Source: a virus. From it: a stretch of DNA of 32,303 bases. Under the pieces are notes generated by a model that was not told the origin of the DNA, ran no database searches, and worked only from the letters and a program-made list of their open reading frames with translations. Below are positions 12,940 through 32,006 of this stretch, one piece after another (position 1 is the first letter of the stretch; each line of letters opens with the position of its first letter). The stretch lies in IMG/VR virus record IMGVR_UViG_3300010883_000226, positions 1 to 32,303 of that record; one strand, written 5' to 3'. A program made the position numbers and the translations under genes.

Positions 12940-13125
12940 CTACGCCTTCTTTTTCTCAGGAATCAACTCTATGACCTTCTCGGCCCTAGCCTCACCAAGT
13001 TCATCGGTTTGCTCTTTGATCTTGCGAGAGAGAGCAGACTTCATAAGGCGCAGGTTCGTGTTCTCCTGCGTCAACTCAGTGATAACGGCTTGCAAGTCGT
13101 CGGCGGTCAGTTGGATTTCACTCAT
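12940..13125 (-). CDS. Small coiled-coil protein, 61 aa
   Basis: No family is recognised. Nearly the whole protein (about residues 7-58, from ADDLQAVITELTQENTNLRL onward) is highly charged and helical with leucines and isoleucines at heptad-like spacing, so a coiled coil is likely. It ends in KKKA. Start and stop both touch neighbours: ATGA overlap at 13122-13125, and the TAG stop immediately before the next ATG. A similar small helical gene precedes it (13122-13334), so the two may act as a pair, for example as assembly factors between the head and neck genes. That role is inference. Confidence 0.6.
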   Translation of the reverse strand: MSEIQLTADDLQAVITELTQENTNLRLMKSALSRKIKEQTDELGEARAEKVIELIPEKKKA

Positions 13126-13334
13126 GCTGGACGGTTCGTAGCAGTAAAACCTTTCAGGTCTGGGTCACCTGATGTATCCAGCAACCCCTCAATGTCAGCC
13201 TTCTGAGCAGTAACAGTTGCGGTTTTGTACAGAGCGTTCTCGTCACGGAGTTTTCGCAGCTTGATAATCGCCTGAGACTGTGCGGTGTGCCGAGCCTCTA
13301 ATGCTTCCAGAGAATCTTCAATGTAAGTAGGCAT
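13122..13334 (-). CDS. Small helical protein, 70 aa
   Basis: No family is recognised. Residues about 4-45 (EDSLEALEARHTAQSQAIIK, then LRKLRDENALYKTATVTAQK) are helical and charged, followed by a short tail (GLLDTSGDPDLKGFTATNRP). AGGAGA lies five bases before the ATG at 13334. It sits between a putative fibre gene (13342-14013) and another small coiled-coil gene, with ATGA overlap to the latter. Both helical proteins lie in the head-neck part of the operon, so a structural or chaperone role is plausible. Confidence 0.6.
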   Translation of the reverse strand: MPTYIEDSLEALEARHTAQSQAIIKLRKLRDENALYKTATVTAQKADIEGLLDTSGDPDLKGFTATNRPA

Positions 13335-13341
13335 ATCTCTC

Positions 13342-14013
13342 CTATGCTATATACGGATTATTCGTGCCGAATATTGTGATCTCTACGTCATAAGTTCCAG
13401 CACCGCCGCCGCCAGTATGGAGCAACGATATTTGCCGTTCGGCTGACATGGTGTAGGTACGAGTCGTTGGTGCTGTCCCGTCCTTCGTGCTGGCCGCTTT
13501 GACAATCGTCGAACCTGACCCCCGTGGGATAATAATCAAATCTTGGAACTGATTTTCTGAGTTATCGTTCTTACGGCCTATTACCATCCCGAACCCACCA
13601 GTGACCCCTCCTGCCATCCCATCTGAGGAAGTGGCAATCACCGTGGTCGTGTTATCCAACACGCTCTGAGTGTTCTTCTGGTATATCCCCATACCGCCGG
13701 GAGAGCCTCCACTTTGCACGAAAAGGCCATCACCGAAATATGACTTTCCTGCAACTCCTATACCACCAGCAACCTTCAATGCCCCAGCGGTGGCAGATGT
13801 AGATGCTGTGGTGTCTGCTATATCCACTGATGGAGCAAATGTAATATCGGTTGCATCGAACTCTGCAATCTCAGCACCACCAACGCTCAAATTGACTATG
13901 TTTGCACCGGAAGACCAGAAACCCGTGTCGCGGTCGCCTCGGACGTATGCGCCGGGAAGGGCTACTGTTCCAGCAGGAAACGAACCGGGGACAGGAATGA
14001 AAGTAAATGGCAT
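13342..14013 (-). CDS. Putative virion fibre protein (head or neck appendage), 223 aa
   Basis: The N-terminus (VALPGAYVRGDRDTGFWSSG, about residues 17-36) has the D.DTGF(W/Y)S.GAN pattern common in phage tail and head fibres. The next part (STSATAGALKVAGGIGVAGK, about 73-92) matches the S..TGAL.V.GG.GV.G repeat seen in many phage fibre and collar proteins. The C-terminal part is beta-rich and ends YDVEITIFGTNNPYIA. What is odd is the place: it lies between capsid and connector genes rather than with the tail fibres. That suggests a head fibre or neck whisker, although a moved tail fibre is also possible. Family-level support is good; location on the virion is inferred. Confidence 0.65.
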   Translation of the reverse strand: MPFTFIPVPGSFPAGTVALPGAYVRGDRDTGFWSSGANIVNLSVGGAEIAEFDATDITFAPSVDIADTTASTSATAGALKVAGGIGVAGKSYFGDGLFVQSGGSPGGMGIYQKNTQSVLDNTTTVIATSSDGMAGGVTGGFGMVIGRKNDNSENQFQDLIIIPRGSGSTIVKAASTKDGTAPTTRTYTMSAERQISLLHTGGGGAGTYDVEITIFGTNNPYIA

Positions 14014-15309: not shown

Positions 15310-16860
15310 TTATGCTCCAGCGAGTTTGCTGATGTTGTACGCGCCAGCGGTGTGCGTTGCGCCCGTAATATCGCCAGAGCGATCTACAAGTGCGATGCGG
15401 AAACTGACGTACATCGTGGTCTGGCCCTTGCCAGCTTCGCGCTCCGTTTCAAATGTGATGCCTCGTCGGAAGCCCACGTACCACTGAGTGGTATTGAAGC
15501 CAAGAATCGTTCCCTCGGTGTTCGCAGCAGCGGTAACAGGGTCGGTCACTTTTCCATTGGCCCCCGTGTTTCGCATCTGCTCAGACACCAAGATCGGGGT
15601 CGCGTAAAGGCTCATCAGTTCACCAGACGACAGGGTTGAAGTTCGGCTGCTGTCAGCAGTCTCAATTTCAGCAATCGCCAGTGATGCGATGCGGGTCTGC
15701 GCGTCTGTGACGAATACGGTTTCCGAAGGTCGGATTGCGTACTTGCCCATCTTGGCGAGAACCAGGTTGTACGCTGCGGCTGATACCGCTGCGTTGTGGT
15801 TTGTGCCTTGCCCTGTGTTGTCCACAAGGAAGGCGTGACGCAGACCATCGAATCCGAGCAACCACTGGGCCTTGCCAGGGTCGGTCGCCAAGATCGTTGC
15901 ACCATCGGAGTTGATGCCGCTGGCAGCAGTCTGGTCAGCGTTCAAGAGAACGTCATCGATCACTTCGGCTGCGTTGCGAGCAAGGCTGGAGCGGAGTTCG
16001 GTGGCGAACGCAACGATTGAATCCTCGCTGAGTTCGTCAGAGAACGGCACGCCTGTCTTAAGACCCTTTGCGTTCAGGGTAACTTTTGAAGTCGCAACAT
16101 CGGTCGTGGTTGCTGAGACATTCTGGTTGATGGGATACCAGTTTGTGTTCCCAAGCTGAGTCGGCCAGTCGTATGGCTGAGTCGGCATTGGAACCTGGGT
16201 CATCACCGGGAGAACCACCGAGGTCAGGTTCACGTCCATCCAGAGGCTTGCGGCCTCAAAGGTTGGGACGAGTTCATCGCCAGAGCCAGCGGTGGTTGAA
16301 TCCATCGCCTTTTTCTTGGCAACTTCTGTCCGCATGGCGTTTGCCCATGAGCGTGCGCCAACTGCGTAACGCTGAACGGCAGGGTGTCCCATCGGGAGTC
16401 CCTTTGCTTCGGCGCGCATACGGATGGCGTTTTCTTCCCACTGGTCAATCTGCTCAAAGCCGAAAGAATCCAGAAGGGCTTTCTTGGCTGCTTGGGCTTG
16501 AACGAACCACGGATGGTCGTCGGCAAGAACGGTGTCGCCAGAGTGGAACATTCCTTTACCGGCGAGGAAGGCATTAAGTTCCGGGATACCAGCACCGGCG
16601 AAGCGGCCCTCTGGAACACGGATGCCGTTGCGGTAATCCAGCTTCAAAGCCTTGTCCCGCTTACCGTCTTTCATCTGCTTTTCAAGATCGCCAACAATAT
16701 CGGTGATGCGCTGAACTTCCTCTTTAAGAGGGGCAACGCCTTCCTTCACCCTGTCGCCCATGAACCCGCGAACTTCGCGAATCTCATGGAGTAGATTGTC
16801 AACGTCTGAATCTACCGGGGCATCGGCGACCTGCGCCGCTGCTTCCTTCTCATCAGCCAT
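15310..16860 (-). CDS. HK97-fold major capsid protein, 516 aa
   Basis: This is the shell-forming protein. The N-terminal region (about residues 1-75) is highly charged and helical (LLHEIREVRGFMGDRVKEG, then LKEEVQRITDIVGDLEKQMK), matching the HK97 delta scaffolding domain that the prohead protease removes. The body has the expected layout: STTAGSGDELVPTFEAASLW (N-arm into E-loop), a P-domain-like helix (SEDSIVAFATELRSSLARNA) and a C-terminal part (YVGFRRGITFETEREAGKGQ, then TMYVSFRIALVDRSGD). The adjacent upstream gene is the protease, overlapping by eight bases. Length fits capsids that keep a delta domain. I see no separate scaffold gene. Confidence 0.9.
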   Translation of the reverse strand: MADEKEAAAQVADAPVDSDVDNLLHEIREVRGFMGDRVKEGVAPLKEEVQRITDIVGDLEKQMKDGKRDKALKLDYRNGIRVPEGRFAGAGIPELNAFLAGKGMFHSGDTVLADDHPWFVQAQAAKKALLDSFGFEQIDQWEENAIRMRAEAKGLPMGHPAVQRYAVGARSWANAMRTEVAKKKAMDSTTAGSGDELVPTFEAASLWMDVNLTSVVLPVMTQVPMPTQPYDWPTQLGNTNWYPINQNVSATTTDVATSKVTLNAKGLKTGVPFSDELSEDSIVAFATELRSSLARNAAEVIDDVLLNADQTAASGINSDGATILATDPGKAQWLLGFDGLRHAFLVDNTGQGTNHNAAVSAAAYNLVLAKMGKYAIRPSETVFVTDAQTRIASLAIAEIETADSSRTSTLSSGELMSLYATPILVSEQMRNTGANGKVTDPVTAAANTEGTILGFNTTQWYVGFRRGITFETEREAGKGQTTMYVSFRIALVDRSGDITGATHTAGAYNISKLAGA

Positions 16861-17815
16861 TAGAAATACTCCTTAGCTGCAATAGTGCCTGAGAAACCGC
16901 GCCCCGCTGATCTGCGTTCAGGGTTTCTTTTTCCGTAATGGACTCCGGTATTTCCGGTTCCACTGTTTCGGACTTTTTTGGTTCTGGCTCGTCATCTTCC
17001 GGGTCAGCGGTGCGAGCCGTATCCACCACTGACTTGATCGCCTCGGCTGCGGCCTCTATTGAGTTCGCCGCGTCTATAAGCGATGTGAGATTCTTCTTGC
17101 TGATCGAACGGCCAGCCTTCGCCTCCAGAAAGTCGGTGTGGTCAGTCCACTCCACGTTGTAGTTGAGATTGATCCACTCATCAGATGAGGTCGTTGTCTC
17201 AGGTGCTACGCCGGGAAGTTCGATGCTGTCCATGTAGAACACGGGCCTTGCGCCAGCGTCTAACGCCTTCTTCAATGCAGCCTGGTTCATGGGGATTGGC
17301 ACGCCTGAGATTTCTAGCAGTTCAGCCTTCGTGAAAAGAAAGCTGGCGAACATGCCCTTCTTGCCTTCACCGTCCCGGTCGCGTTCCTCGAATTCGGTGG
17401 GCCTGAAACCAACCGACTGCGCCCGAAGTATTCCCTCGTCAAACTTGCGAGCGATGCCCGCTGCGAAGTCGTCGCCCATATCGAACTTGACCGTGTTGAG
17501 CAGGGTCTTGCCATCACGCCACACCTTCGGGACTGTGCCGATGGGTGCGATGGAATAGTTGTGCGCCCACATATATACGGGGTTGGATTTGAAGTTCGCC
17601 AAGTCCCAGCCCGCTTGCTGGATAACATCGCCGCCGCGGTCTTCGTCCTCTGTCGAGGCTACGAAGACATTGACTGACTGGTCATCTTCATGGGCCTTCG
17701 CTTCAAATACGACTGGCCGATAGAGCATGGGAGATTCACCCACGCCTCGCCTGTACGCATCCAGGGTCGTGACTTCATCATCACGGACGCGCTTGAGTAC
17801 CTCTGAAAAATCCAT
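16853..17815 (-). CDS. HK97-type prohead protease, 320 aa
   Basis: This serine protease of the U35 type cleaves the capsid delta domain during head maturation. The family pattern is clear: VFVASTEDEDRGGDVIQQAG (about residues 50-69), NPVYMWAHNYSIAPIGTV with likely catalytic His85, LRAQSVGFRPTEFE with likely catalytic Ser134, and ELLEISGVPIPMNQAALKKA (about 165-184). The C-terminal 120 residues (about 200-320) are an acidic, probably flexible extension that could act in scaffolding. A GGAAGGG site precedes ATG 17815. It is the first gene of the leftward operon here. Portal and terminase genes, which normally come before it, are absent from this place. Confidence 0.9.
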   Translation of the reverse strand: MDFSEVLKRVRDDEVTTLDAYRRGVGESPMLYRPVVFEAKAHEDDQSVNVFVASTEDEDRGGDVIQQAGWDLANFKSNPVYMWAHNYSIAPIGTVPKVWRDGKTLLNTVKFDMGDDFAAGIARKFDEGILRAQSVGFRPTEFEERDRDGEGKKGMFASFLFTKAELLEISGVPIPMNQAALKKALDAGARPVFYMDSIELPGVAPETTTSSDEWINLNYNVEWTDHTDFLEAKAGRSISKKNLTSLIDAANSIEAAAEAIKSVVDTARTADPEDDEPEPKKSETVEPEIPESITEKETLNADQRGAVSQALLQLRSISNG

Positions 17816-17972: not shown

Positions 17973-18332
17973 ATGAACACTGAACTGACCACCAACGACT
18001 TCAAGATTATCTGGCGAGGGATTCGCAACCCAAACCGCAAAAGTTACACGCATGACAGCGTGAACTACGATGAGCGGGATGCTTCAATCGACAAGTTCCG
18101 AGTACCCACCATCGTCACCTGCCAGGACTGCGACACCACTATGCGGGCCAACATCAGCAAGCGCGACCGGGTCTACTGCGGCAACCACCAGATGCAGCGG
18201 AGTATCAAGCGCAACCAACTCATCGCAGAGCAGTCGGACAATATGTGTGACGAACGATGCCTCAACGCCAGAGGTCACAAGTGTTCATGCTCATGCGGCG
18301 GTGGCAACCACGGAATGTTCTGGAACTTCTAG
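17973..18332 (+). CDS. Cysteine-rich protein with CSCGG.NHG motif, 119 aa
   Basis: The start chosen is ATG 17973 (MNTELTTNDF), because an earlier in-frame codon at 17937 lies inside the -35 box of the promoter. The protein contains CQDC (about residues 50-53), YCGNH (about 69-73) and a C-terminal cluster C..RCLNARGHKCSCSCGGGNHG, a pattern I have seen in small phage zinc-binding proteins of unknown role. Several Cys/His pairs make metal binding likely. It is the first gene downstream of promoter A, with no ribosome-binding site, and is followed by a DNA methyltransferase gene. A nucleic-acid role is plausible but not shown. Confidence 0.7.
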   Translation: MNTELTTNDFKIIWRGIRNPNRKSYTHDSVNYDERDASIDKFRVPTIVTCQDCDTTMRANISKRDRVYCGNHQMQRSIKRNQLIAEQSDNMCDERCLNARGHKCSCSCGGGNHGMFWNF

Positions 18333-18346
18333 GGCTTACGGAACCT

Positions 18347-18943
18347 ATGAAATACGAGTCCCTCTATAACAAGTCAGAATCCTGGCCTGTGCTGCGTGAC
18401 ATCTTCGCGCTGCGTTTCCCTGAAGCGGAGACAGTGCTGGATTTGACTTACGGGCTAGGCACATTCTGGAAGTGGGACTACCCATTCAAACTCCACAAGA
18501 ACGATTGGGTGACTGAAGCGGACACCTCCCATGACTTCATCGACTACCCGGCGGCGCGCTACGACGTGGTGGTATTTGACCCGCCATTCTCTGCGATAGG
18601 CCCACCCAGCGACGGAAAGGGCGACTGGTCTGCTCGTTACGGTGCTTCACGCGCTCAAGGCGGCCCGCAGAACATCAAAGAGGTAGTTGCCTACACTCTG
18701 GCCGGTATCGAGTCCGCTATGAGGATCGCCCGCTGCGGTGTCATCTTAAAGACTCAGCGCGTCATTGAGTCCATGAAACTCCACGACGTTCCGCATGCTG
18801 CGAAGGTGGAGATATATTCAAATGGCTGGGAGGTCAGCGACCATGTGTACCTCCACGCACCGAAGCGGCCTCAGCCACCGGGTCGCAGGGTGCTGAACTT
18901 CCGCAACGTACTGAGTGAGTTCATAGTCGCGGTTCCTGGTTAA
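18347..18943 (+). CDS. DNA methyltransferase-like protein, 198 aa
   Basis: The chosen start is ATG 18347 (MKYESLYNKSESWPVL); an upstream in-frame start would run far into the previous gene. DLTYGLGTFW (about residues 32-41) fits a SAM-binding motif I and VVVFDPPFSA (about 74-83) is the DPPF catalytic motif IV of amino-methyltransferases. The short length and the order, motif I before motif IV, indicate a compact single-domain enzyme. No restriction endonuclease is adjacent, so it is probably an orphan enzyme that protects phage DNA. Base and target site cannot be read from sequence. Further downstream lies a Mom-like modification gene. Confidence 0.75.
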   Translation: MKYESLYNKSESWPVLRDIFALRFPEAETVLDLTYGLGTFWKWDYPFKLHKNDWVTEADTSHDFIDYPAARYDVVVFDPPFSAIGPPSDGKGDWSARYGASRAQGGPQNIKEVVAYTLAGIESAMRIARCGVILKTQRVIESMKLHDVPHAAKVEIYSNGWEVSDHVYLHAPKRPQPPGRRVLNFRNVLSEFIVAVPG

Positions 18944-19679: not shown

Positions 19680-19943
19680 ATGAACATCTGGATTGACCCC
19701 AACGTAAACGAGAAGGCGGAGAGTGGGAAGTATGATGCGGTTGAAGTCCAGCCCATAGTTGACGACCCTATCTCCAAGACGTGCGAGCCAACCACCAACC
19801 CAACCGAAGCAGATTTCTGGAGCGTCTACTTGCACACCCCTGACGCGGGTGCGGTCTGTGTTGCTGACCTACCCAACGAGCATGAAGCAAATACCCTAGC
19901 TTCAAAACTTGAAACGCTCATCTGGAATTATTTGAACGGTTGA
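19680..19943 (+). CDS. Hypothetical protein, 87 aa
   Basis: The start chosen is ATG 19680 (MNIWIDPNVNEKAESGKYDA), one base after the previous stop; a longer frame from 19572 would overlap the zinc protein fully. Visible parts are an N-terminal strand, an acidic/Thr-rich middle (PISKTCEPTTNPTEADFWSV), a second strand pair (YLHTPDAGAVCVADLP) and a C-terminal helix (NEHEANTLASKLETLIWNYL). It looks like a small alpha/beta protein. Its stop overlaps the TTG start of the Mom-like gene (TTGA, 19940-19943), so the two are translationally coupled and may work together. Confidence 0.65.
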   Translation: MNIWIDPNVNEKAESGKYDAVEVQPIVDDPISKTCEPTTNPTEADFWSVYLHTPDAGAVCVADLPNEHEANTLASKLETLIWNYLNG

Positions 19944-20677
19944 TTACCGCATGGCAATATGAACTCAGGGAGAAGTCGCGAGCATCAGATCAAGGCGACT
20001 TGTTTGGGCGGTGGTGGGAAGAACTCAATCTGGATATTCAATCATCCACTGTTCAACGCATCACACCTGACACAGCGAAGCAGATCATACTCAAATACGA
20101 ATGGCTCGGCACTATGCCGCCCTTCATTCAGGATTGCTTCGGCCTGTACTTTGAAGGGCCGCTGGGCCTGACGCTTGGCGGCGCGATTGTTTTCAGTCAG
20201 CGACTTGAAGCAAACCTCAAAGATGCCGAGCATATGAAGAAAACCGTAATCCCTCCAGAGGCGGTCTACCTTTCCCGCGGGGCTTGTGCGTGGTGGACAC
20301 CAAAGAACTCAGCGTCTTACATGATTGCTAATGCGGCGAAGCAGATGGGGAATGTGTCTGTATTGGCATATGCCGACCCTGACGCGGGAGAAGTTGGCTC
20401 CATCTATCAAGCATTGAACTGGGTATATGTCGGGCCTACTAAAGATCATTCCGACCCCAGCGGGTTCTACGTGGATGGCAAATTCAGATCAACCCGCGAT
20501 TTAAAGATGTATTCGACAAAGAGGGTACAAGCCGCCTATCCACAATCAGAAGTGAAGGCGAGCGCACGCAAGCACCGGTACTTAGGTATCTACGGAGACA
20601 AGCGGTGGCGAAAATCTATGTCGGCCCGCATGGAACCTCACGCCCTGCCATATATGAATAGGTATGCAGATGAATAA
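19940..20677 (+). CDS. Mom-like DNA adenine modification protein (GNAT-type), 245 aa
   Basis: The phage Mu Mom family belongs to the GNAT-like fold and converts adenine in phage DNA to a bulky methylcarbamoyl form, blocking restriction. This protein has the family pattern: a GLYFEGPLGLTLGGAIVFSQ strand pair (about residues 68-87), YLSRGACAWWTPKNSASYMI (about 110-129), and VLAYADPDAGEVGSIYQALN followed by WVYVG (about 141-165). The length is close to Mu Mom. The start is TTG, overlapping the previous stop as TTGA; no in-frame ATG occurs before residue 59. A weak start fits a protein that is toxic if overproduced. Assigned from remembered family features; the exact modification is unknown. Confidence 0.75.
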   Translation: MITAWQYELREKSRASDQGDLFGRWWEELNLDIQSSTVQRITPDTAKQIILKYEWLGTMPPFIQDCFGLYFEGPLGLTLGGAIVFSQRLEANLKDAEHMKKTVIPPEAVYLSRGACAWWTPKNSASYMIANAAKQMGNVSVLAYADPDAGEVGSIYQALNWVYVGPTKDHSDPSGFYVDGKFRSTRDLKMYSTKRVQAAYPQSEVKASARKHRYLGIYGDKRWRKSMSARMEPHALPYMNRYADE

Positions 20678-22603: not shown

Positions 22604-22628
22604 CAGCACCGCCCTAATTGAATATCTA

Positions 22629-22655
22629 AGACCCGCCGCCCCCGGCGGGTCTTTT
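22629..22655 (+). terminator. Intrinsic terminator ending cassette D
   Basis: AGACCCGCC (22629-22637) pairs with GGCGGGTCT (22644-22652), then TTT C. It lies between convergent genes: the rightward gene ending at 22603 and the leftward SIS gene ending at 22657. The minus-strand side has no good T tract. Confidence 0.85.
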
Positions 22656-22656
22656 C

Positions 22657-23220
22657 TTATGTCGAGAAATCAGGGCCGTAAACGGGTGCGCCGATACCAC
22701 CAGCGACCATATGAATTACTGCGCTGTGCGCGTCCTCTATGGGGCCATACTCACGGCTGGGGATATGCACCACGTCATCGCAGAGCGGCTTCAATCGCCC
22801 GCCATCCATACCGAGGATTCCCCACACTTTGACGCCCTGATAGTCCTTGTACTTCTTCGCCATATCAATGCAGTTCTGCGAGTTGCCTGAGCCGCTAAAG
22901 AGAAGCAGCATATTAGGCATGAACAGCGCGCCGCTAGAGTACGACCGACTGTGTGCGCCGTGGTATCCCATATCGTTGCTCTCTGCGGTGAGCCATGCGT
23001 TATCTGCCAGCAGGTCGAACGCTGGTATCCCTGCCTGACGTAGATGCAGAACCAGGTGCGCCGCATTCGCCTGAGAACCACCGTTGCCCATCACGTAGAC
23101 CGCCCCGCGGTTTTCGTGCAGGTCTTTGCATAACTGGGCCACACGGCCAACCTTGATCTGGCCCACCGCCCGAAGCGTTGCAGCTTGCAGCGACTTGATG
23201 CGGGTCGTATCAACCTTCAT
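22657..23220 (-). CDS. SIS-domain sugar isomerase, GmhA-like, 187 aa
   Basis: GmhA converts sedoheptulose 7-phosphate to a heptose 7-phosphate. This protein has the same length class and SIS pattern: YVMGNGGSQANAAHLVLHL (about residues 42-60), LADNAWLTAESNDMGYHGAH (about 71-90), LLFSGSGNSQNCIDMAKKY (about 106-124), and a C-terminal EDAHSAVIHM with His165 and His170. Compared by memory with E. coli GmhA, the final histidine is kept, but the helix Glu (Glu65) aligns with His59 and the Gln before the last motif with Glu162, so the substrate may differ. ATG 23220 overlaps the methyltransferase stop as ATGA. It is the last gene of the leftward operon. Confidence 0.75.
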   Translation of the reverse strand: MKVDTTRIKSLQAATLRAVGQIKVGRVAQLCKDLHENRGAVYVMGNGGSQANAAHLVLHLRQAGIPAFDLLADNAWLTAESNDMGYHGAHSRSYSSGALFMPNMLLLFSGSGNSQNCIDMAKKYKDYQGVKVWGILGMDGGRLKPLCDDVVHIPSREYGPIEDAHSAVIHMVAGGIGAPVYGPDFST

Positions 23221-23783
23221 AGTACCATCACGGTCTGCGCCATACGCTTCGCTGCAATCTCGCAATAGCGTTCCTCGATCTCGATACCGATAGCCTTGCG
23301 TCCCAAGTCTTTAGCCGCGCGCAGAGTTGTGCCGCTGCCCATGAAGGGGTCAAGCGCGACACCATCCGGGCAGCGTTTGAGTAATGCCCTCATTAGTTGA
23401 ATTGGCTTCTGTGATGGATGTTCATTCAGTTTGTCTTGTCCAATCTGTGCCGTGACAGACGATGTGATTGATGAATAGCGAAATAATCGCATCATTCCGG
23501 GCCAGTTAAACGAATACACTAATTCGATCAGATCAGGGTTCTTTGCTTTGTCCCAAATAGCTACGGATTCATACGGATACGGGAACATCGCCCGCGCTGT
23601 CCAGAACCACACCTGCGGAATATCAAGCGCAGCGACCTCAGAGAGTCCAATTGAACCGTATTCAAGATGCGCTGTGGGATACGGCGGGTCAGTCAGCACA
23701 AGGTCTGCGCTCAACTCAGGCAGCAACTCGCGGCAGTCAGCATGGTAGATCGTGACTGCATCATCGGAGTAGTAGGGTTTCAC
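23217..23783 (-). CDS. DNA methyltransferase, beta-type motif order, 188 aa
   Basis: This enzyme methylates adenine N6 or cytosine N4 in DNA. LVLTDPPYPTAH (about residues 28-39) holds the DPPY catalytic motif near the N-terminus, and ALDPFMGSGTTLRAAKDLGR (about 143-162) holds the SAM-binding motif near the C-terminus, preceded by HPSQKP (122-127). That order (IV before I) marks the beta class. The start chosen is GTG 23783, which overlaps the aminotransferase stop as GTGA and has GAGGAG eight bases upstream; a GTG at 23792 is the alternative. Coupling by four-base overlaps to sugar enzymes on both sides is unusual and ties it to that pathway. Confidence 0.85.
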   Translation of the reverse strand: MKPYYSDDAVTIYHADCRELLPELSADLVLTDPPYPTAHLEYGSIGLSEVAALDIPQVWFWTARAMFPYPYESVAIWDKAKNPDLIELVYSFNWPGMMRLFRYSSITSSVTAQIGQDKLNEHPSQKPIQLMRALLKRCPDGVALDPFMGSGTTLRAAKDLGRKAIGIEIEERYCEIAAKRMAQTVMVL

Positions 23784-24880
23784 CCCTGCCACTCCTCAAT
23801 CACGCTGCACATATAGGCCACTTCTTCGCCCGTGAGGTATTCGTGAATCGGTACGCTCACATGCTGGTCGCAGAACTGCTCCGCTATTGGGAAGTCACCA
23901 CGGGCGTATTCTAGGGGCCGCATCGCTGGTTGGAGATGGAACGGTATCGGGTAATGCACCTTCGCCTCAACGCCGTTCTCAACCAGGTAGTCGAGGAACG
24001 CTTGCCGGTCGCCATCCACGATGATCTGGTACAGATGATAGGCGTGGCCGGTTCCAGGTTCGACGTAGGGCTTCATTAGTCCATCCACCCTATCGACCGC
24101 CTCATCAAGCAGCAGGGCGTTCTCTGCGCGCCGCGCTGCCATCGTGTCGTAATCATTGAGGACTTCCAGAACCATCGTTGCCTCGACTGTACTCATGCGG
24201 TGGTTGTATCCCGGCTGCTCCCACAGGTCGCGACCTTTGAGGCCGTGGTTCCTGAGTGACCTGCTGGCATCATCTACCGCCGCATCATTGGTAGCGATCA
24301 CGCCACCGTCAGCCCAGCCGTGGACGTTCTTCAATGGGTGAAGCGAGTAGCAGAAGGCGTATGCGTCTTTGAGCCGGTCGCCAATCTTCTGATCTACGAA
24401 CCGACCGTTGACCGCTTGCGCTGCGTCAACGACCAACTTCGGGCCGTTCTTGTGATGCCACCATTCGATGCCGTAGAGATTGCCAGCCCATAGCACCGGC
24501 ACAACCCAGTCATATTGCGTACCGTCGAAGTGTGCGATGTTCGGAGCGTCCACCCGGTCAACGTCCGTGAACACCGGCTTACCGCCAGCCTGAATGATCG
24601 CGCCAGTAGTAGCGATGAACGATACAGGCGAGGTCAGCACTTCCTCACCTGGTTGCAGCCCAGCAGCCTGTAACGCCACAGCGATTGCGTCTGTCCCATT
24701 GGAACACCCGATTGCGTGCTTCGTGCCTACGAGTTCGGCCCATGCGGACTCAAACTCAGCGACCTCTCTGCCGAGCGTAAAATCCCCACGGGAAGCCAGC
24801 GCGCCAAGTCGCGCCAGTATCCGACCTGTGAGTGGGGTCGCGTCAAACTGCCGGTCAAGATAGTTGTACGGCACTCTCAT
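23780..24880 (-). CDS. DegT/DnrJ-type sugar aminotransferase, 366 aa
   Basis: Enzymes of this family transfer an amino group from glutamate or glutamine to a keto-sugar nucleotide, with PLP as cofactor. Visible landmarks are FTLGREVAEFESAWAELVGT (about residues 34-53), GCSNGTDAIAVALQAAG (about 58-74), VVDAAQA with Asp152, and FCYSLHPLKNVHGWADGGV with the PLP lysine at about 184. The C-terminal part (YHLYQIIVDGD, then GVEAKVHYPIPFHLQP and CDQHVSVPIHEYLTGEEV) is typical, and length is normal. The product would be an amino sugar. It follows a short membrane peptide gene and is coupled to the methyltransferase by GTGA. Confidence 0.88.
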   Translation of the reverse strand: MRVPYNYLDRQFDATPLTGRILARLGALASRGDFTLGREVAEFESAWAELVGTKHAIGCSNGTDAIAVALQAAGLQPGEEVLTSPVSFIATTGAIIQAGGKPVFTDVDRVDAPNIAHFDGTQYDWVVPVLWAGNLYGIEWWHHKNGPKLVVDAAQAVNGRFVDQKIGDRLKDAYAFCYSLHPLKNVHGWADGGVIATNDAAVDDASRSLRNHGLKGRDLWEQPGYNHRMSTVEATMVLEVLNDYDTMAARRAENALLLDEAVDRVDGLMKPYVEPGTGHAYHLYQIIVDGDRQAFLDYLVENGVEAKVHYPIPFHLQPAMRPLEYARGDFPIAEQFCDQHVSVPIHEYLTGEEVAYMCSVIEEWQG

Positions 24881-24882
24881 AA

Positions 24883-25017
24883 TTATTCTTCTTTCTCCGC
24901 TTCCGCTGTCCGCTTATCCTCTTGCAGCCTGTTCCAGACAAGCCATCCCAGCGTCGTCCAGACACCCGTGGCAATCGTGAAAGTCCCGGCGATAAGTGCT
25001 ATTTCAACAGCAGTCAT
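24883..25017 (-). CDS. Single-span membrane peptide, 44 aa
   Basis: This short frame lies exactly between the epimerase stop and the aminotransferase start, with the same direction as both. Residues about 6-28 (IALIAGTFTIATGVWTTLGW and following LVW) form one hydrophobic helix, followed by a charged cytoplasm-type tail (NRLQEDKRTAEAEKEE). The tail length and charge resemble small membrane anchors or assembly peptides. No family is recognised. A second tiny single-span peptide starts the same operon (28508-28612), so membrane-bound assembly of the pathway is a possible reading. Confidence 0.6.
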   Translation of the reverse strand: MTAVEIALIAGTFTIATGVWTTLGWLVWNRLQEDKRTAEAEKEE

Positions 25018-25018
25018 T

Positions 25019-26002
25019 TCATTCTCCCTTTGTAACGAGATCACCCATGCGGGCGTTGTTGCGGTAGATCGGGTCGTCGGGGTTTATGGCTCCTTGCTGG
25101 AACCATCGAAAGTTATCGCGTACTGCATCGGCGATTGAGCGAACGCATTTGAAACCTAATTCTTTCTCGGCCCGGCTACCATCCATTCGATATGAACGGC
25201 TGTCCTCAACGTCCACTGTTTCAACAACGGCCTTGATACCTTCCTCACCCGCAACGGTCTGCACAGCCGCCGCAATATCACGCACAGTAAAATTGCCCTG
25301 CGTCAAATTCCACGGCTTGCCAGCTACACCCTCATGCGTCAGCAGCAGACGGTAGAAGCGCACCACATCCTGGACGTGGACATTGGAGCGGAATTGGTCG
25401 CCGCCGTAGGGCGTAATCACACCATCAAAGAACGCTTGCTTGCTGAATATGTTGACCACCGTATCGAGCCGCATCCTGGGGGCTGGCCCCATCGCCGTTG
25501 CCTGTCGCACAGCGGTTGCCACCCTCCCTTGCCTATTTGCCAGCAACACCACCCGCTCACCATCCAGCTTCTGAGCAGCGTATTTAGTTTTGGGTATCGG
25601 TTGTGCGTCCTCGTCGGGGATACCATCTTCCGCAGCAAGGCCGTATACGCTGCTCGATGATGCGTACACGAGCCTCCCGACGTTGCAGACCTTTGCCGCC
25701 CTGATGATGTTCTCCGTACCGCCTACGTTCACTTCTGCGCCGAAGGTAGGATTCATGTCAACCAGTTCATCGGTGACGACCCCAGCAAGATGAATGACCG
25801 CATCCATTCCAGCGGATGCCCGTTCAACAGCTTTGTAATTACGTATATCGCCGGTTATAAAGTCGATGCCTTCGTAGTCGGACAGCGCGTTGCCGAAGTA
25901 GCCGGTATCGAACGTGCGAATGTGATTGTCCTTGTCGCGATGTAGGTACTGAACCAGGGCTGTGCCGATGTAACCAGTTGCGCCAGTAATGAGGATATTC
26001 AT
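25019..26002 (-). CDS. NAD-dependent sugar epimerase/dehydratase (extended SDR), 327 aa
   Basis: This class of enzyme changes nucleotide sugars through an NAD-bound keto intermediate. ILITGATGYIGTALVQYL (about residues 3-20) is the G..G..G cofactor motif, DAVIHLAGVV (about 67-76) is a standard SDR strand, LVYASSSSVYG (about 111-121) holds the catalytic Ser/Thr, and KYAAQK gives Tyr141 and Lys145. The rest (VHVQDVVRFYRLLLTHEGVA, then PWNLTQGNFTVRDIAAAVQT) is normal, and length is typical. I cannot tell 4-epimerase from heptose epimerase or dehydratase by eye. A GGGAG site precedes ATG 26002. It is probably the source of the keto sugar used by the aminotransferase. Confidence 0.85.
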   Translation of the reverse strand: MNILITGATGYIGTALVQYLHRDKDNHIRTFDTGYFGNALSDYEGIDFITGDIRNYKAVERASAGMDAVIHLAGVVTDELVDMNPTFGAEVNVGGTENIIRAAKVCNVGRLVYASSSSVYGLAAEDGIPDEDAQPIPKTKYAAQKLDGERVVLLANRQGRVATAVRQATAMGPAPRMRLDTVVNIFSKQAFFDGVITPYGGDQFRSNVHVQDVVRFYRLLLTHEGVAGKPWNLTQGNFTVRDIAAAVQTVAGEEGIKAVVETVDVEDSRSYRMDGSRAEKELGFKCVRSIADAVRDNFRWFQQGAINPDDPIYRNNARMGDLVTKGE

Positions 26003-26012
26003 CTGTGTCTCC

Positions 26013-27380
26013 CTACGCCAAAATAGATTTTATGAAGCCTTTGAGTTTGTTGAACGGTACAGGGATGTTGCCCTCAGTCTCGACGTGAATGGCCGCTGCT
26101 GCCGCGCCAACTAATGCAACTCCCATGATCGGCGCGCCTGATTTTACGAGCGGTGCTGAGTAACTCAGGAACGCATCACCCGCACCGATCCTGTCTACTG
26201 GCGAATGACTGAACGCCGGGACGTGAAGATACTGAGGCCCGCCCCTATCGGTATGGCAGAGCAACGCGCCCTGATGCCCGCGGGTAACGACCAACATGCT
26301 CGCGCCCAGTCTGGTCATTTCGGAAATCATCTTCTGGTCAATCGAGGTGTTCAGTGGTTGCGCCATATCCAGTTCGACCGCATCCACGACAACGTATGAA
26401 GCCCGGTTCCATTTCCGCAGGGTATTGAAGCCCCAGTTGAGCGAGTTGGCCTGGACGGTGAGGGCTATCCAGTTGAACGCCCCTGTGACCTTCCGCATCG
26501 TTGCATCATCTGGGAACATGCCGTGGCCGAAGTCAGCGACGATTGCGCCATCGACTGAGCCAGAGTCGAAGGGTACATCAGGCCATACCCATTCACCCGT
26601 GGAGTCAGCAAGCGAGAACACCTTTTGATTGAAGGCATCCACCCATCGCCGCTTCGTGACGTAACTCTCCTGCGCCCATTCGGGCAGGTCTACATTCTTC
26701 ACGAAGTTCCGCAGGTGTGCAGCGATAACCCGACTGCCGCCAGCGTAGGCGGTCTGCTTGCCGGTTGGCACGTATGTAATCACGTTCTCTTTCGGCGACT
26801 TGTTGCGTGGCTCAACGAATACATATTCATCGGCTATCGCTTCGCCCAGGACAGCGAAGGAGTTGGCAGCAGCCGCAGAGAGCCACCCGTCAACATCCTC
26901 GTATGAATAGTGCCGTTTAAATAGATCGAGCCACCTCAGCGCATCGCCGGGCAACGTGGGCATGACCTGGTTAATGGCCCGGCTGGATGAGTCCAGTTCT
27001 GTGTCGGTATAGACCAACTCTCCGCCGTGAGCCTCCACCGCTTTGCGCTCGGCATCCAGCATCCCATTCGTATCGAAGTCGCGGTAGTCCTTGCCCTTAA
27101 TGTAAATATCAGGCTCGATCTTTTCGATGGCCGCTACCGCTGAATCTGACTGCGTGATGATCGCGCCCCAGACGTATTGCAGCCCGGCGACAACCATCGC
27201 GCGCTGGTCGTGATTGAACACAGGGCGACCCGGCCCCTTATTCACGAAGTCGTCATGGGTGATGCTCACAAGAAGCTGGTCGCCCAATTCTGAGGCAGCT
27301 TTCAGGTGCGCTACATGGCCGTGATGCAGCACGTCAAATACGCCATGCGCCAGCACGATAGTCGGTTTCTTAGTCGGCAT
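26013..27380 (-). CDS. Nucleotidyltransferase/PfkB kinase fusion, HldE-like with swapped halves, 455 aa
   Basis: Residues about 1-140 are a cytidylyl/adenylyltransferase domain: VLAHGVFDVLHHGHVAHL with the HxGH motif at 19-22, IYIKGKDYRD (about 92-101) and SSSRAINQ (131-138). Residues about 175-455 are a PfkB-type kinase: LGEAIADEYVFVEP..KSPKENV (about 178-200), YAGGSRVIAAHLRNF (about 212-226), and the catalytic DRIGAGDAFLSY (about 396-407). In E. coli HldE the kinase precedes the transferase, so the order here is reversed, as also known in some bacterial homologues. The kinase would phosphorylate C1 and the transferase would add NMP. A C-1 phosphatase (GmhB-like) is not in the window. GAGGGAGA precedes ATG 27380. 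Confidence 0.8.
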   Translation of the reverse strand: MPTKKPTIVLAHGVFDVLHHGHVAHLKAASELGDQLLVSITHDDFVNKGPGRPVFNHDQRAMVVAGLQYVWGAIITQSDSAVAAIEKIEPDIYIKGKDYRDFDTNGMLDAERKAVEAHGGELVYTDTELDSSSRAINQVMPTLPGDALRWLDLFKRHYSYEDVDGWLSAAAANSFAVLGEAIADEYVFVEPRNKSPKENVITYVPTGKQTAYAGGSRVIAAHLRNFVKNVDLPEWAQESYVTKRRWVDAFNQKVFSLADSTGEWVWPDVPFDSGSVDGAIVADFGHGMFPDDATMRKVTGAFNWIALTVQANSLNWGFNTLRKWNRASYVVVDAVELDMAQPLNTSIDQKMISEMTRLGASMLVVTRGHQGALLCHTDRGGPQYLHVPAFSHSPVDRIGAGDAFLSYSAPLVKSGAPIMGVALVGAAAAAIHVETEGNIPVPFNKLKGFIKSILA

Positions 27381-27395
27381 AGTCTCCCTCTGTGC

Positions 27396-28511
27396 CTACA
27401 AAAAGTTGCGGTGCGGTACGTCGCCTGTCGCTGGCTCGATACGCTGGATACCCTTCACATGATTATCGAGAGCGACGTTCGTATAGTGCTGAATGGCGAG
27501 CGCGCCCATATGCTTCGCTGCGTCGAACTGGTCTGAGGCCAGCAGGTTCATCACGTCCCAATATCGGTCGCTGCGCCATATATCAATGAACCGCTCATCC
27601 ACGTAGTTGCCGATGTGGTACGCCGCATACTGTCGGTTGAATAGCATCCCCGTGGGAGCGACCAGGCCAGAGCCGCTAATCTGCAACAGGAATGGAGTGG
27701 CATACATGCGCTTGTACGAAGGCTTGTCGCCGGTCTTGATCTTGCTCCACTTCACGATCACCTGGGTCGTATCGTTGCTCATGGTTTCAGCTTCGTGCAG
27801 GGCTGCATATATCTCAGGGTAACGCTCGTACTCCACGCCCATCGTGCGAGCCTCGTCATCGGATGTGTGCTTGATTACAGCGTAGTCCACGCCGAGGTCG
27901 ATACCGAGTTGAGAGAAGTCCCGAATCTTCTGCCCATCGTCGGGCGTGACGAAGGTCTGGATGCCGAGCGTCACGGCTAAGTTATCCCGTTCCTTTAGGG
28001 CAACCGCGTATCGAACATTCTCCTGCATCACTTCCCATGCGTCGGTGTTCTCAGGGTCGTGGTGCATCATGCGGTTGAAGTCTGCCCGTGTCCCTGCCAG
28101 CACCGTAAAGCGTACCCAGTCGAGCAGAGGCAGCACTTCATCCGATACTTCGGGAGTTAGCCGCCAGCCGTTCGTGGCGTTGCCTACGCTCATCCCACGC
28201 TCAACTGCGCCCTTGATGAATGGGACGTAAGCCTTCGACAATGTGGACTCACCATCACTGATTAGGCTCAGGCCGCGCACACCCATCTCAGCGCAGTCGT
28301 CTAAGAACTGCATCGCTGCATCGTGGGTGATGTTGGCGCGCTCACCTGGTTCCTGGAGCATGGCGTAGCAACCACGGCAGGACGCTTGGCACGCGCGGGT
28401 CAGGGCCATATCTATCGTCACCGGGGCGATGCGTTCTCCAGCTTCCCACGCCTCTACGCGGTCGGTGTGGTAAGCGATCTTCGTGCCATCGAGAATGTAT
28501 TGCTCGCTCAT
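27396..28511 (-). CDS. Radical SAM protein, 371 aa
   Basis: The start chosen is ATG 28511 (MSEQYILDG), because it overlaps the stop of the tiny upstream gene as ATGA. Residues 41-48 (CQASCRGC) give the C-x3-C-x2-C motif that binds the 4Fe-4S cluster, followed by a Tyr, and SLISDGESTL (about 82-91) matches the GGE-type SAM-binding motif. The middle (VRFTVLAGTRADFNRMMHHD) fits a TIM barrel. The C-terminal part (SGSGLVAPTGMLFNRQYAAY and YWDVMNLLASDQFD) has no clear second cluster, so SPASM is not supported. The substrate may be a sugar nucleotide, judging from its neighbours, but radical SAM chemistry is too varied to say. Confidence 0.85.
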   Translation of the reverse strand: MSEQYILDGTKIAYHTDRVEAWEAGERIAPVTIDMALTRACQASCRGCYAMLQEPGERANITHDAAMQFLDDCAEMGVRGLSLISDGESTLSKAYVPFIKGAVERGMSVGNATNGWRLTPEVSDEVLPLLDWVRFTVLAGTRADFNRMMHHDPENTDAWEVMQENVRYAVALKERDNLAVTLGIQTFVTPDDGQKIRDFSQLGIDLGVDYAVIKHTSDDEARTMGVEYERYPEIYAALHEAETMSNDTTQVIVKWSKIKTGDKPSYKRMYATPFLLQISGSGLVAPTGMLFNRQYAAYHIGNYVDERFIDIWRSDRYWDVMNLLASDQFDAAKHMGALAIQHYTNVALDNHVKGIQRIEPATGDVPHRNFL

Positions 28512-28612
28512 CGCACCCACTCAATCAACCACATCACAGACCCCAGTATCGGGAGCATCACAATCGTCTTGATGATGCCCCATTTTTTGGTGCGATAGCG
28601 GTCGGTGTTCAT
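28508..28612 (-). CDS. Tiny single-span membrane peptide, 34 aa
   Basis: This 34-residue frame (MNTDRYRTKKWGIIKTIVML, then PILGSVMWLIEWVR) has a basic start and a hydrophobic helix. Its stop overlaps the radical SAM start as ATGA, and its ATG begins seven bases after a TAGAAT -10 box, so the message would be nearly leaderless. There is no ribosome-binding site. It could be a leader peptide that couples translation, or a real membrane peptide. Being first in the operon and coupled to the next gene argues that it is translated; function unknown. Confidence 0.5.
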   Translation of the reverse strand: MNTDRYRTKKWGIIKTIVMLPILGSVMWLIEWVR

Positions 28613-30241: not shown

Positions 30242-30562
30242 TTAAGCGTCTATCTCAACACCACGCAAGCGGCGCAAGGAATTCATATCGCCTTTGACTT
30301 CCAGGTAGCAGCGCAGACTAGGCTCCACATGCTCCTGAATTGCAGCCTGAACGCGCCGTACAGCCACGCCAGTCTGGGCAGCGGTGTTATCCGGTACGCT
30401 CAGAATTACCCGCCCCTGTGCGCTCGCCGAGATAACCTGCACCGTAGCGTCAACGTCGTAAGCGGCAATCTCGCACGCTTCCTTGCGGTCGCGTTCGTCG
30501 GTGCATTTCCACCAGTCTGACACGGCTGCTATCTCCGCATATGGGTCGCCGATTGTGACCAT
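30242..30562 (-). CDS. Hypothetical protein, 106 aa
   Basis: No family is recognised. The protein begins MVTIGDPYAEIAAVSDWWKC, has a charged helix (TDERDRKEACEIAAYDVDAT), two beta segments (VQVISASAQGRVILSVPDN) and an ending with SLRCYLEVKGDMNSLRRLRG. The layout suggests a small alpha/beta domain. It overlaps the E1-beta-like gene by one base (TAATG at 30560-30564), so the two are co-translated and may be partners. It is the last gene of the leftward group and abuts the UUCG terminator. Confidence 0.6.
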   Translation of the reverse strand: MVTIGDPYAEIAAVSDWWKCTDERDRKEACEIAAYDVDATVQVISASAQGRVILSVPDNTAAQTGVAVRRVQAAIQEHVEPSLRCYLEVKGDMNSLRRLRGVEIDA

Positions 30563-31503
30563 TAGAACGGGCCTCCTGTTGGTACGAATGGTTCGTCTAT
30601 ATCGCCCACCACAGATTCAGATTCTTCGCCGAGCAACCGCAACGCAGCATTCGCAATATGAGCGGGTGTCGGATACCACTCTTGCTCCAACGGATACGAT
30701 GCAGGAACGGGCGTAGCAGGTGGCCGAACGATCAAAGAATCAATGCCATTCATCATCATCCTGATTCCAATGTCTGCCGCCAGCCCTTGATTGTTCAGGT
30801 CAGCGATCACCACTCGGCGCAGCGTTGGAAATGAAGCGTTGGGGTTGCTCATGCTGGCCCACTCCGCATTGATGCCACGCTTCCGCAGCAAGGCGCAAGC
30901 CTCAATACAATCTAGCGTTGTCGCCGACAAGCCGACGAGTTGAATGTCCGCTGTGTCAGGGTCGCCGTATTGCGACATATCACCCTTGATCTCAGACTCG
31001 TACAAACGCCGATGTTCAAATACGACTGTCGGCCCCTCTATATCTGTATAAACACGCTTCAGCGCGGGGATGGTTGCGGGCAGTAATGTCCTCAACCCAG
31101 GGTCAGCGGCGAACCAGTGAGCGGTGGATTGCGTATGCTGCGGGCCGTTGCCCCAGCCCTGGCCGATGATACAGCGCACCATCAGATTCGGTGCGTCGCT
31201 GCCCATGTATCCCCACTTCGCAGCGGTGTTGATTAGATGCTCCATAGAGAGCGTCATAAAGTCGGCGCGGGCGTGTACGAGTATTGGCTTCCAGCCGTTC
31301 TGTGCGAGGCCCACAAGCGCGCCTGTGAGCATGGTTTCGCTCAGGGGTGTTTCAATAACGCGATCTGGGAAGCGTTCATGGGCCAGCTTGGTCGTGCCGA
31401 AGATGCCCTTCTCATCGGTGACACCTGCACCCATAACGATCACGCGGGGGTCGCGCTCCATGAGGGCTACCGTTTCGTGCGCTATCGTTTCAGCGTAGTT
31501 CAT
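30562..31503 (-). CDS. E1-beta/transketolase pyrimidine-domain protein, 313 aa
   Basis: The start chosen is ATG 31503 (MNYAETIAHETVALMERDPR), which overlaps the upstream stop as ATGA; a longer frame exists but would overlap that gene. The sequence follows 2-oxoacid dehydrogenase E1-beta subunits closely: DPRVIVMGAGVTDEKGIFGT (about residues 18-37), VIETPLSETMLTGALVGLAQ with the TPP-contacting Glu56, PILVHARADFMTLSMEHLIN (about 73-92), and GQGWGNGPQHTQSTAHWF (about 114-131). The C-terminal part ends the family region normally. Such subunits need a partner that binds the TPP diphosphate; none is in the window. As a split transketolase or acyl-transfer enzyme it could supply a sugar or branched group. 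Confidence 0.8.
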   Translation of the reverse strand: MNYAETIAHETVALMERDPRVIVMGAGVTDEKGIFGTTKLAHERFPDRVIETPLSETMLTGALVGLAQNGWKPILVHARADFMTLSMEHLINTAAKWGYMGSDAPNLMVRCIIGQGWGNGPQHTQSTAHWFAADPGLRTLLPATIPALKRVYTDIEGPTVVFEHRRLYESEIKGDMSQYGDPDTADIQLVGLSATTLDCIEACALLRKRGINAEWASMSNPNASFPTLRRVVIADLNNQGLAADIGIRMMMNGIDSLIVRPPATPVPASYPLEQEWYPTPAHIANAALRLLGEESESVVGDIDEPFVPTGGPF

Positions 31504-32006
31504 GTGTTCACCTTCCCTGTCCCACCGCACGTAGGGCATGGGCTGTGGCTTTGTGGGCCGTTTACGATTAATGATTTCCAAACAGTGATTTGCCTTCGGT
31601 GGTTTGTTGACCTATCAGATGGTTTAGTGCGACCAGAAGGAGCGCACCACCCCTTCGATTGCCCCCGGCGCATCACCGGCCCCATCGCTGTCGGGGTAAC
31701 TTCTTTCTCATCTTCATCTAGGGCGTACCCCATAACTGACCACACCCGGTCTGTTGTGAACTCCCCCCTCGTTTCACAGACTTCTTTTAGTGCCGTATCA
31801 GCGCGGGCCTTCCAGCCCTCATCTGCTGCCGCGTCAACGCGGGCCATGCCGACTTCCCTGCCATCAACACCCTTCGCAATAGAATCCTGCAAACTAATCT
31901 TTTCGCCATGCTGCCAGTTCCAGTGATGACACTTACCGCATACATCTGCGATCAAGCCTCCACGCCTAAAGCTACGGCAATCGCAGCCCTCACATTTGGT
32001 ACTCAT
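31500..32006 (-). CDS. Zinc-binding winged-helix-like protein, 168 aa
   Basis: The N-terminal 33 residues carry C5, C8, C10, C23, C26 and H27/H28/H33 (CEGCDCRSF and VCGKCHHWNWQHG), a likely zinc site. The middle (TRGEFTTDRVWSVMGYALDE, then AMGPVMRRGQSKGWCAPSGR and DRSTNHRRQITVWKS, about 78-146) resembles a small winged-helix domain common in actinobacteriophage proteins of unknown role. A C-terminal CPTCGGTG (about 157-164) is a DnaJ-like knuckle. DNA binding is likely. It overlaps the E1-beta-like gene by ATGA and the upstream gene by 17 bases, so it may regulate or simply travel with that group. Confidence 0.65.
   Translation of the reverse strand: MSTKCEGCDCRSFRRGGLIADVCGKCHHWNWQHGEKISLQDSIAKGVDGREVGMARVDAAADEGWKARADTALKEVCETRGEFTTDRVWSVMGYALDEDEKEVTPTAMGPVMRRGQSKGWCAPSGRTKPSDRSTNHRRQITVWKSLIVNGPQSHSPCPTCGGTGKVNT

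Follow-up and report, generated by a model that had tools for sequence, protein, structure and literature searches.

What would a bacterial virus make with genes that resemble the opening steps of heptose activation, carry the two HldE activities in reverse order and stand beside an aminotransferase and a radical S-adenosylmethionine (SAM) enzyme? Such a set occupies one leftward operon of the 32,303-base virus record IMGVR_UViG_3300010883_000226 (IMG/VR), which we analyzed at full length and call the window. The record, which may be a fragment, comes from a virus of bacteria; the minus strand encodes a tape measure protein, a major head protein and a prohead protease. The operon forms one section of a larger cassette that also occurs in other phages and in some bacteria. 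We tentatively read it as the contig-limited portion of a mobile cassette for a nucleotide-activated C2-branched amino sugar, which would most likely be placed on a head protein of the virion. The genes in question are the following.

30562..31581, minus strand: E1-beta-like thiamine-dependent subunit, 2-oxoacid dehydrogenase type (PF02779, 67.7 bits)
27396..28520, minus strand: radical SAM enzyme, 374 residues (PF04055; CxxxCxxC at residues 44, 48 and 51)
26013..27380, minus strand: fused nucleotidyltransferase-kinase, 455 residues (CTP_transf_like and PfkB)
25019..26002, minus strand: extended short-chain dehydrogenase/reductase (SDR), nucleotide-sugar epimerase/oxidase type (PF01370)
23780..24880, minus strand: DegT/DnrJ/EryC1/StrS aminotransferase (PF01041)
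23217..23792, minus strand: N6/N4 DNA methyltransferase, between DegT and SIS (PF01555, phrog_67)
22657..23223, minus strand: SIS-domain aldose-ketose isomerase, GmhA-like, 188 residues (PF13580, TIGR00441)

The five genes named in the first-pass annotation are indeed present, nearly abutting on the minus strand from 28520 to 22657, and profile searches upheld all of its family assignments at family level, the radical SAM enzyme with a Pfam Radical_SAM score (28.5 bits) just under the cut-off of 29.5. Two genes had been overlooked: the N6/N4 DNA methyltransferase, which is the sixth gene of the operon, and the gene of a thiamine-dependent enzyme, which extends the functional set upstream and offers the best hint at the product. 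Promoter-like sites are at chance level in the window (5 vs 6.2) and terminator-like sites are not enriched (3 vs 7.9 in shuffles), so we call the set an operon on account of its gene spacing and the same gene order in other phages.

Clustering of neighboring genes from 17 sources (homologous loci are numbered with an L; for the GC-rich plasmid loci L014 and L015 annotated genes were used) added two further shared families, which Pfam identifies as an E1 dehydrogenase (alpha) and a transketolase pyrimidine-binding domain (beta). In two other viral contigs, L102 and L103, seven genes follow one another on one strand as E1-alpha, E1-beta, radical SAM, fusion, SDR, DegT and SIS, matching the order of the window. 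E1-alpha adjoins E1-beta in L019, L102, L103, L105 and L106, and in L019 it lies upstream of E1-beta, where the contig of the window nears its end; the window phage probably carries its own E1-alpha beyond that point. The E1-beta protein of the window, for which translation may actually begin at an ATG near 31501, scores below the cut-offs of the NCBIfam pyruvate dehydrogenase (PDH) E1 beta profiles; all nine aligned rows share its Glu82 and His149. In L026 to L029, the E1-alpha and E1-beta proteins are only 192 to 199 residues long, compared with 324 and 360 residues for those of Azospirillum.

Two loci, L024 and L025, replace the E1 pair with a three-domain thiamine enzyme (Pfam TPP_enzyme N, M and C), and their records have no E1-alpha; since one such enzyme stands in for the other, the pathway would need acyl-anion chemistry. 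Transketolase-type halves are found in L015 and L023. According to sections of PMC12247030 (see also PMC4753412), keto sugars are branched by three thiamine-dependent classes, namely, YerE-like decarboxylases, alphaKADH2 (E1-alpha/beta) pairs and transketolases; the same sections of PMC12247030 state that alphaKADH2 pairs add C2 units, with pyruvate as the donor where tested, and that the kibdelomycin branch becomes transaminated. The types that we found (E1 pair, three-domain enzyme and transketolase-type halves) match these sugar-branching classes.

That the cassette genes would recur together in other phages, as a comparison of gene neighbors should reveal, was borne out. Viral contigs were scanned with an alignment of the window fusion and two plasmid fusions, a search blind to the radical SAM and thiamine enzymes; it gave 88 loci, the best 80 of which were kept. 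Among these best 80 of 88, seven (L022 to L028) had near full-length matches, covering at least residues 9-415 of 455. All seven whole records also encode the radical SAM family and a thiamine enzyme, the latter matching PF00676 in L022, L023 and L026 to L028 and being of the three-domain type in L024 and L025. Within the fetched stretches, the radical SAM, SIS and thiamine enzymes were each found at 6/7 of these loci, and at 5, 2 and 10, respectively, of the 73 loci with a weaker fusion match (for radical SAM, 6/7 vs 5/73, Fisher p = 1e-5). A thiamine enzyme without radical SAM occurred at six of the 73 (L052, L062, L090, L092, L094 and L101), and L035 has radical SAM and transferase without a thiamine enzyme. 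On the 48-kb contig of L022 (G004), the fusion and SIS genes lie near one end, and E1-alpha and radical SAM lie ∼40 kb away; these pairs would be neighbors if the genome were circularly permuted. Scanning with E1-beta first yielded nine viral loci, three of them repeating the contigs of L019 to L021; radical SAM and at least part of the fusion accompanied 8 of the 9, and L108 had neither. In the fetched stretches, both SDR and DegT are present in the window, L014, L020, L021, L102, L103 and L107, while L106 has DegT without SDR.

The fusion itself is a single 455-residue frame in which CTP_transf_like (47.5 bits, cut-off 21; match at residues 11-105) precedes PfkB (40.4 bits, cut-off 25.8; match at residues 350-439). 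We place the transferase at residues ∼8-137, with HHGH at 19-22, and a PfkB/HldE-like kinase at ∼172-450, with GAGD at 399-402. The proposed order, transferase first and kinase second, is thus confirmed by Pfam and, for the kinase half, also by fold comparison, which covered that half only (residues 156-448). HldE has the opposite order, kinase first and adenylyltransferase second, and the fusion reaches 108.1 bits against the curated HldE profile NF008454, whose cut-off is 521. HxGH and GAGD are both present and invariant in 11 of 11 aligned rows; in a 17-row alignment, L105 has TxGH and L106 lacks GAGD. (The L106 fusion gene, 12395-13501, has an unmatched kinase end, perhaps because the gene is broken or its sequence was misread.) Among the fold matches listed for the kinase half, the top one is HldA 4e84 (Z 25.0, 273 aligned residues, 3.9 Å); other HldA entries reach Z 24.0, 22.5 and 22.1 and the best non-HldA kinase Z 23.4, a modest lead for HldA. 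The kinase is compact: ∼25 residues are missing in 14 of 15 aligned phage fusions and are kept in L023 and the two bacterial ones.

Was the fusion rightly called domain-swapped? Its order is reversed, as stated, but it is no peculiarity, for the same architecture occurs on two bacterial plasmids and in 13 other viral contigs. A tblastn search of 72,556 plasmid records gave 48 matching records, two of which cover at least 80% of the query: transferase-first fusions of Azospirillum oryzae (E 1e-60) and Solidesulfovibrio carbinolicus (E 3e-48). One-frame fusions are found in L022 to L028, L020/L110, L021, L102, L103, L105 and L107. Elsewhere the parts stand alone: in L030, kinase and transferase are separate genes with others in between; L029, a 5.8-kb contig, has the transferase alone; and L019 has a kinase part, cut by the contig end, without a preceding transferase. 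In P-SSM2 and the marine virus AG-345-P14, transferase and kinase occupy neighboring frames that overlap, with the transferase first as in the fusion. Because these split frames share the order, a joining of neighboring genes explains it better than a swap within HldE, and an HldE domain swap as a local oddity is ruled out by the same order in bacteria and many phages. Single-sequence scans of viral contigs with the fusion, radical SAM and DegT queries found nothing. A scan of genome contigs gave a single Bacteroidota locus, with the transferase half alone (36%), so the bacterial spread of the fusion is known from the plasmid collection only. A Pseudomonas aeruginosa plasmid cluster (L016, 3826-10613, and L017) encodes a transferase, an SDR and a DegT protein that are 43%, 37% and 31% identical to those of the window, and it has no radical SAM match. 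The fusion is the least remarkable part of the cassette; the novelty lies in the gene combination and in one clade of the radical SAM enzyme.

This enzyme family carries CxxxCxxC in 22 of 22 aligned rows, and the motif and a partial TIM-barrel fold place the window protein in the radical SAM superfamily. Its predicted model (predicted local distance difference test, 84) folds like BlsE (Z 21.4), DesII (Z 21.0) and SkfB (Z 20.1), a maturase of ribosomally synthesized and posttranslationally modified peptides (RiPPs). In profile searches, DesII is the nearest protein of solved structure (1.5e-11); identity to DesII and BlsE is 11 to 14%. In the search with the curated DesII profile TIGR04426 (cut-off 450), the window protein was unlisted and two plasmid homologs scored 30.3 and 44 bits. 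DesII and BlsE act on sugar nucleotides or sugar nucleosides. For the window protein, our best guess is a sugar nucleotide substrate; SkfB is nearly tied with them, so the reaction is not fixed. A viperin-type enzyme was considered and rejected (34 bits vs a cut-off of 180; viperin fold rows lower, at Z 15.9-17.2).

The auxiliary (SPASM) cysteines are replaced in the window protein at residues 272, 290, 338 and 342. All four are absent from the window, L019 and L106 and all four are present in the other 19 of the 22 rows; a fifth, at residue 219, is lost in the same three proteins and also in P0004 and L122. In keeping with this, Pfam SPASM matched P0003 and P0004 and not the window protein. 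The three cysteine-less enzymes, among them the nearest relative of the window protein (L019, 68% identity), group together with 100/100 support as a single clade, which is nested inside the cysteine-bearing family on a stem of 0.58 changes per site. Because they form one supported clade there, a single loss, rather than an assembly error, appears to be the simplest account.

How close, then, are the remaining enzymes to heptose metabolism? As expected, the fusion and the isomerase belong to carbohydrate families: the kinase half folds like the heptose kinase HldA, and each of the 15 solved sequences that match the SIS protein is a GmhA or a DiaA. Their labels as GmhA- and HldE-like stand as statements of homology, yet both fall below the curated cut-offs: the isomerase, at 38.4 bits for Pfam SIS_2 (cut-off 27), reaches 70.9 bits against GmhA TIGR00441 (cut-off 209.45). 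A passage of PMC5705639 names H64, E68, Q175 and H183 as the GmhA zinc ligands and calls them completely conserved in orthologs. The candidate metal-site residues of the window protein are H56, H60, E163 and H171, so the GmhA site is not reproduced. In the HMMER alignment the Q175 position is E163, a glutamate in 16 of 16 homologs, and all 16 likewise retain H56 and H171. For E68, HMMER has a gap; the position that we assigned to it, with uncertainty, by its spacing of four from H56 is H60 in the window, with D in 11/16 and H in 5/16 homologs. An active metal site seems plausible from these residues, as does a different substrate.

The SDR matches Pfam Epimerase at 132.5 bits (cut-off 20.9), has Y141xxxK145 and SSSSVYG and is 48% identical to the SDR of L102. 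Its best solved relative is 6vo6 (E 1e-23), named in the PDB as a putative sugar-nucleotide epimerase/dehydratase, which we take to be Campylobacter Cj1427, a GDP-heptose 4-oxidase. The aminotransferase (PF01041, 238.7 bits, cut-off 19.8) belongs with the nucleotide-sugar aminotransferases, its best solved relative being one of them (3uwc, E 8e-70), and K184 in an SLHPLK motif, presumably the pyridoxal phosphate (PLP)-lysine site, is the candidate PLP-lysine. The methyltransferase matches PF01555 (80.1 bits) and phrog_67 (E 3.8e-42); as the DegT and SIS frames of L102 and L103 overlap and leave no room for an intervening gene, it stands outside the conserved sugar set. The cassette was first described as lacking a C-1 phosphatase. 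This has to be corrected, as the phosphatase step of the GmhA/HldE pathway is that at C-7 (GmhB). The window record has no match to this HAD-IIIA family (TIGR01662), and a C-7 phosphatase as a cassette member was discarded, since the one match over the cut-off among 17 records is on the Azospirillum plasmid, far from the cluster; L023 has a weak match.

From these assignments we infer substrate, product, order of steps, radical reaction, branch and acceptor as follows. The SIS protein would isomerize a ketose phosphate to an aldose phosphate, the kinase half of the fusion would phosphorylate C-1, and a terminal phosphate, if any, would be removed by a host phosphatase not encoded here, after which the transferase half would form the nucleoside diphosphate sugar. 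The SDR and the radical SAM enzyme may then oxidize, epimerize or deoxygenate the ring to give a keto sugar, onto whose ketone the thiamine-dependent E1-alpha/beta pair would add a two-carbon unit from pyruvate. DegT would transaminate a ketone of the ring or the branch, and a phage glycosyltransferase would move the sugar, most likely onto a head protein of the virion. The skeleton is most likely heptose-like, and the suggestion that the sugar may be new stands insofar as the product is probably not plain ADP-heptose. A bolder version, which we consider unlikely, is that tailed phages of several lineages hold in their head region a complete pathway to an undescribed heptose-type C2-branched amino sugar that decorates the capsid, with an obligatory radical SAM enzyme that in one clade is free of the auxiliary cluster.

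The acceptor is suggested by the genomic setting. Upstream of the cassette, L019, L102, L103 and L106 each have a portal gene; downstream of it are a head protease/major head gene in L102 and, in L103, a borderline match to a prohead protease. In L021, the radical SAM gene is surrounded by terminase, portal and major head genes, and L024 has a major head gene after the cassette. The window has its head protease and major head genes at 15310-17815, 4.8 kb past the SIS gene and on the same strand. Between portal and E1-alpha in L019, L102, L103 and L106, and also present in L105, is a family of 274 to 367 residues with a DND motif (our own reading of its sequences), a possible glycosyltransferase. 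The placement of the cassette in several relatives, amid head genes and close to this possible glycosyltransferase, suggests virion glycosylation. According to part of PMC11256854, mycobacteriophages Che8 and Rita carry glycans on their major capsid protein. A search of the phage-record collection with the head protein of the window gave no match, and viral contigs gave one relative at 96% (L012, 8.3 kb, too short to show the cassette).

Some further features lie in or near the operon:

28508..28612, minus strand: 34-residue frame that overlaps the start of the radical SAM gene, its translation containing a hydrophobic stretch; perhaps due to chance
22628..22653, strand not assigned: 11-pair hairpin just past the last operon gene, with a T-rich tail on the plus-strand side only

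The originally drawn interval, by ending at 28612, also covers the 34-codon frame, which ends within the radical SAM start. The terminator scan calls the hairpin on the plus strand only, not on the strand of the operon. Between SDR and DegT, from the end of the SDR gene, a short minus-strand frame (24883-25019) with a hydrophobic stretch, as judged by eye, perhaps encodes a small membrane protein. Between the cassette and the head genes, a Mom-family gene for DNA adenine modification lies at 19940-20677 (plus strand; PF25680, 75.5 bits), and a frame at 18257-18943 (plus strand) matches a PHROG DNA methyltransferase (E 1.1e-9) and nothing in Pfam.

Several observations weigh against a branched amino sugar on the virion head. 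We found no E1-alpha in the window record, itself possibly a fragment, and no SDR or DegT in the fetched stretches of L022 to L030, so amination is not a core step. The three-domain thiamine enzyme, which we label YerE/AHAS-type on account of its TPP_enzyme N, M and C domains, may be YerE-like or another member of its superfamily. In enzymes that lost the auxiliary cysteines, the radical activity might be altered or gone. No glycosyltransferase match turned up in the window record, where the gene would have to lie beyond the contig end, or in L020 and L021. The DND-family members of L102, L103 (two) and L106 have no Pfam match, the one in L019 scores a weak 22.1 bits in one search and 23.6 in another for PF00535 (cut-off 23.3), and the L024 match is below that cut-off. 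In the window, genes of the opposite (plus) strand separate cassette and head genes. Both bacterial relatives sit in surface-polysaccharide-type loci, and the operon methyltransferase and the nearby Mom gene point to DNA modification as well.

Could the activated sugar instead alter the host surface polysaccharide, for receptor masking or superinfection exclusion and with no virion glycosylation, as is assumed for cyanophage lipopolysaccharide clusters? The Azospirillum plasmid homologs indeed sit with glycosyltransferases and a carbamoyltransferase, the annotated transferase, kinase, isomerase and epimerase genes of P-SSM2 and P-TIM68 adjoin tail fiber or glycosyltransferase genes, and Sf-CH8 and SynMITS9220M01 carry part of the set next to glycosyltransferases. 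Still, we judge this somewhat unlikely, given the portal gene upstream in four relatives and the head genes downstream in L102 (borderline in L103); no flippase or polymerase turned up either, although no dedicated search was made. It is distinctly unlikely, in our view, that the thiamine enzyme acts first and like a transketolase, making a long-chain ketose phosphate for the SIS protein and leading to an extended aminosugar of the lincosamide kind that is not C-branched. Such an order of chemistry would suit the SIS, kinase, transferase, SDR and DegT steps, and the transketolase-type halves of L015 and L023 fit it too. However, a profile of the E1-beta family (with the Azospirillum protein among its rows) is far closer to PDH E1 beta structures (1.4e-50) than to split transketolase (2.9e-13), and the substitute in L024 and L025 has three thiamine pyrophosphate domains of the decarboxylase/acetohydroxyacid synthase (AHAS) superfamily.

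Transfer of the sugar to phage DNA as hypermodified bases, with the operon methyltransferase as part of the system, would account for a methyltransferase frame that overlaps both DegT and SIS and for the Mom-family and methyltransferase-like genes nearby. We consider it improbable: L102 and L103 have nothing between DegT and SIS, Mom chemistry is not known to be sugar-based, and the scanned proteins, a subset of those in the record, include no DNA glycosyltransferase family. An ordinary supply of ADP- or GDP-heptose accompanied by unrelated passenger genes is less probable still; the SIS protein and the HldE-like kinase and transferase do represent three steps of that pathway, but isomerase and fusion score far under the curated GmhA and HldE cut-offs, the zinc site is altered, and the same additional genes recur in many contigs.

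If the acceptor of the branched amino sugar is the capsid, these phages would encode a glycan coat together with the synthesis of its donor, a combination that we know from few phages. A testable pathway emerges from the repeated association of a thiamine branching enzyme and a radical SAM enzyme with GmhA/HldE-like genes, seen in phages and bacteria alike. For the role of the auxiliary cluster in SPASM enzymes, the three phages that lack its cysteines provide a natural experiment. In the open-license literature that we searched, we found neither a phage cassette of this kind nor its sugar described.

How does the cassette compare with known systems? With HldE, or HldA plus HldC, and GmhA it has homologs of isomerase, kinase and transferase in common, and it differs in its reversed domain order, compact kinase, altered zinc site and scores below the cut-offs. 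The closest solved relatives of its radical SAM enzyme are DesII by profile and, among the fold matches listed, DesII and BlsE. Cyanophages P-SSM2 and P-TIM68 are likewise annotated with transferase, kinase, isomerase and epimerase, and P-TIM68 also has an E1-alpha/beta-like gene; unlike the cassette, these phages and AG-345-P14 have split genes and no DegT match in their stretches. The radical SAM query matched a single cyanophage record among 50,697, SynMITS9220M01 (29% over 128 residues). The alphaKADH2 systems (AviB1/AviB2 and KbDH) and YerE, as portrayed in sections of PMC12247030 and PMC4753412, share the two-subunit E1 or three-domain type next to sugar-nucleotide genes. They are described there for deoxy-keto sugars, whereas here SIS/HldE-like enzymes build the sugar, radical SAM is a regular partner and some phage E1 subunits are very short.

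A surface-glycan cluster on the Azospirillum oryzae plasmid NZ_CP054615.1 (L014), to our knowledge uncharacterized, has a transferase-first fusion (32% identity over residues 7-438) and radical SAM, DegT, SDR and SIS proteins that are 49%, 35%, 34% and 27% identical to those of the window. It differs in being bacterial, in its extra SDRs and second DegT, in its full set of SPASM cysteines and in its longer kinase (312 vs 279 residues), and it holds the cassette, including E1-alpha and E1-beta, in one 10-kb run.

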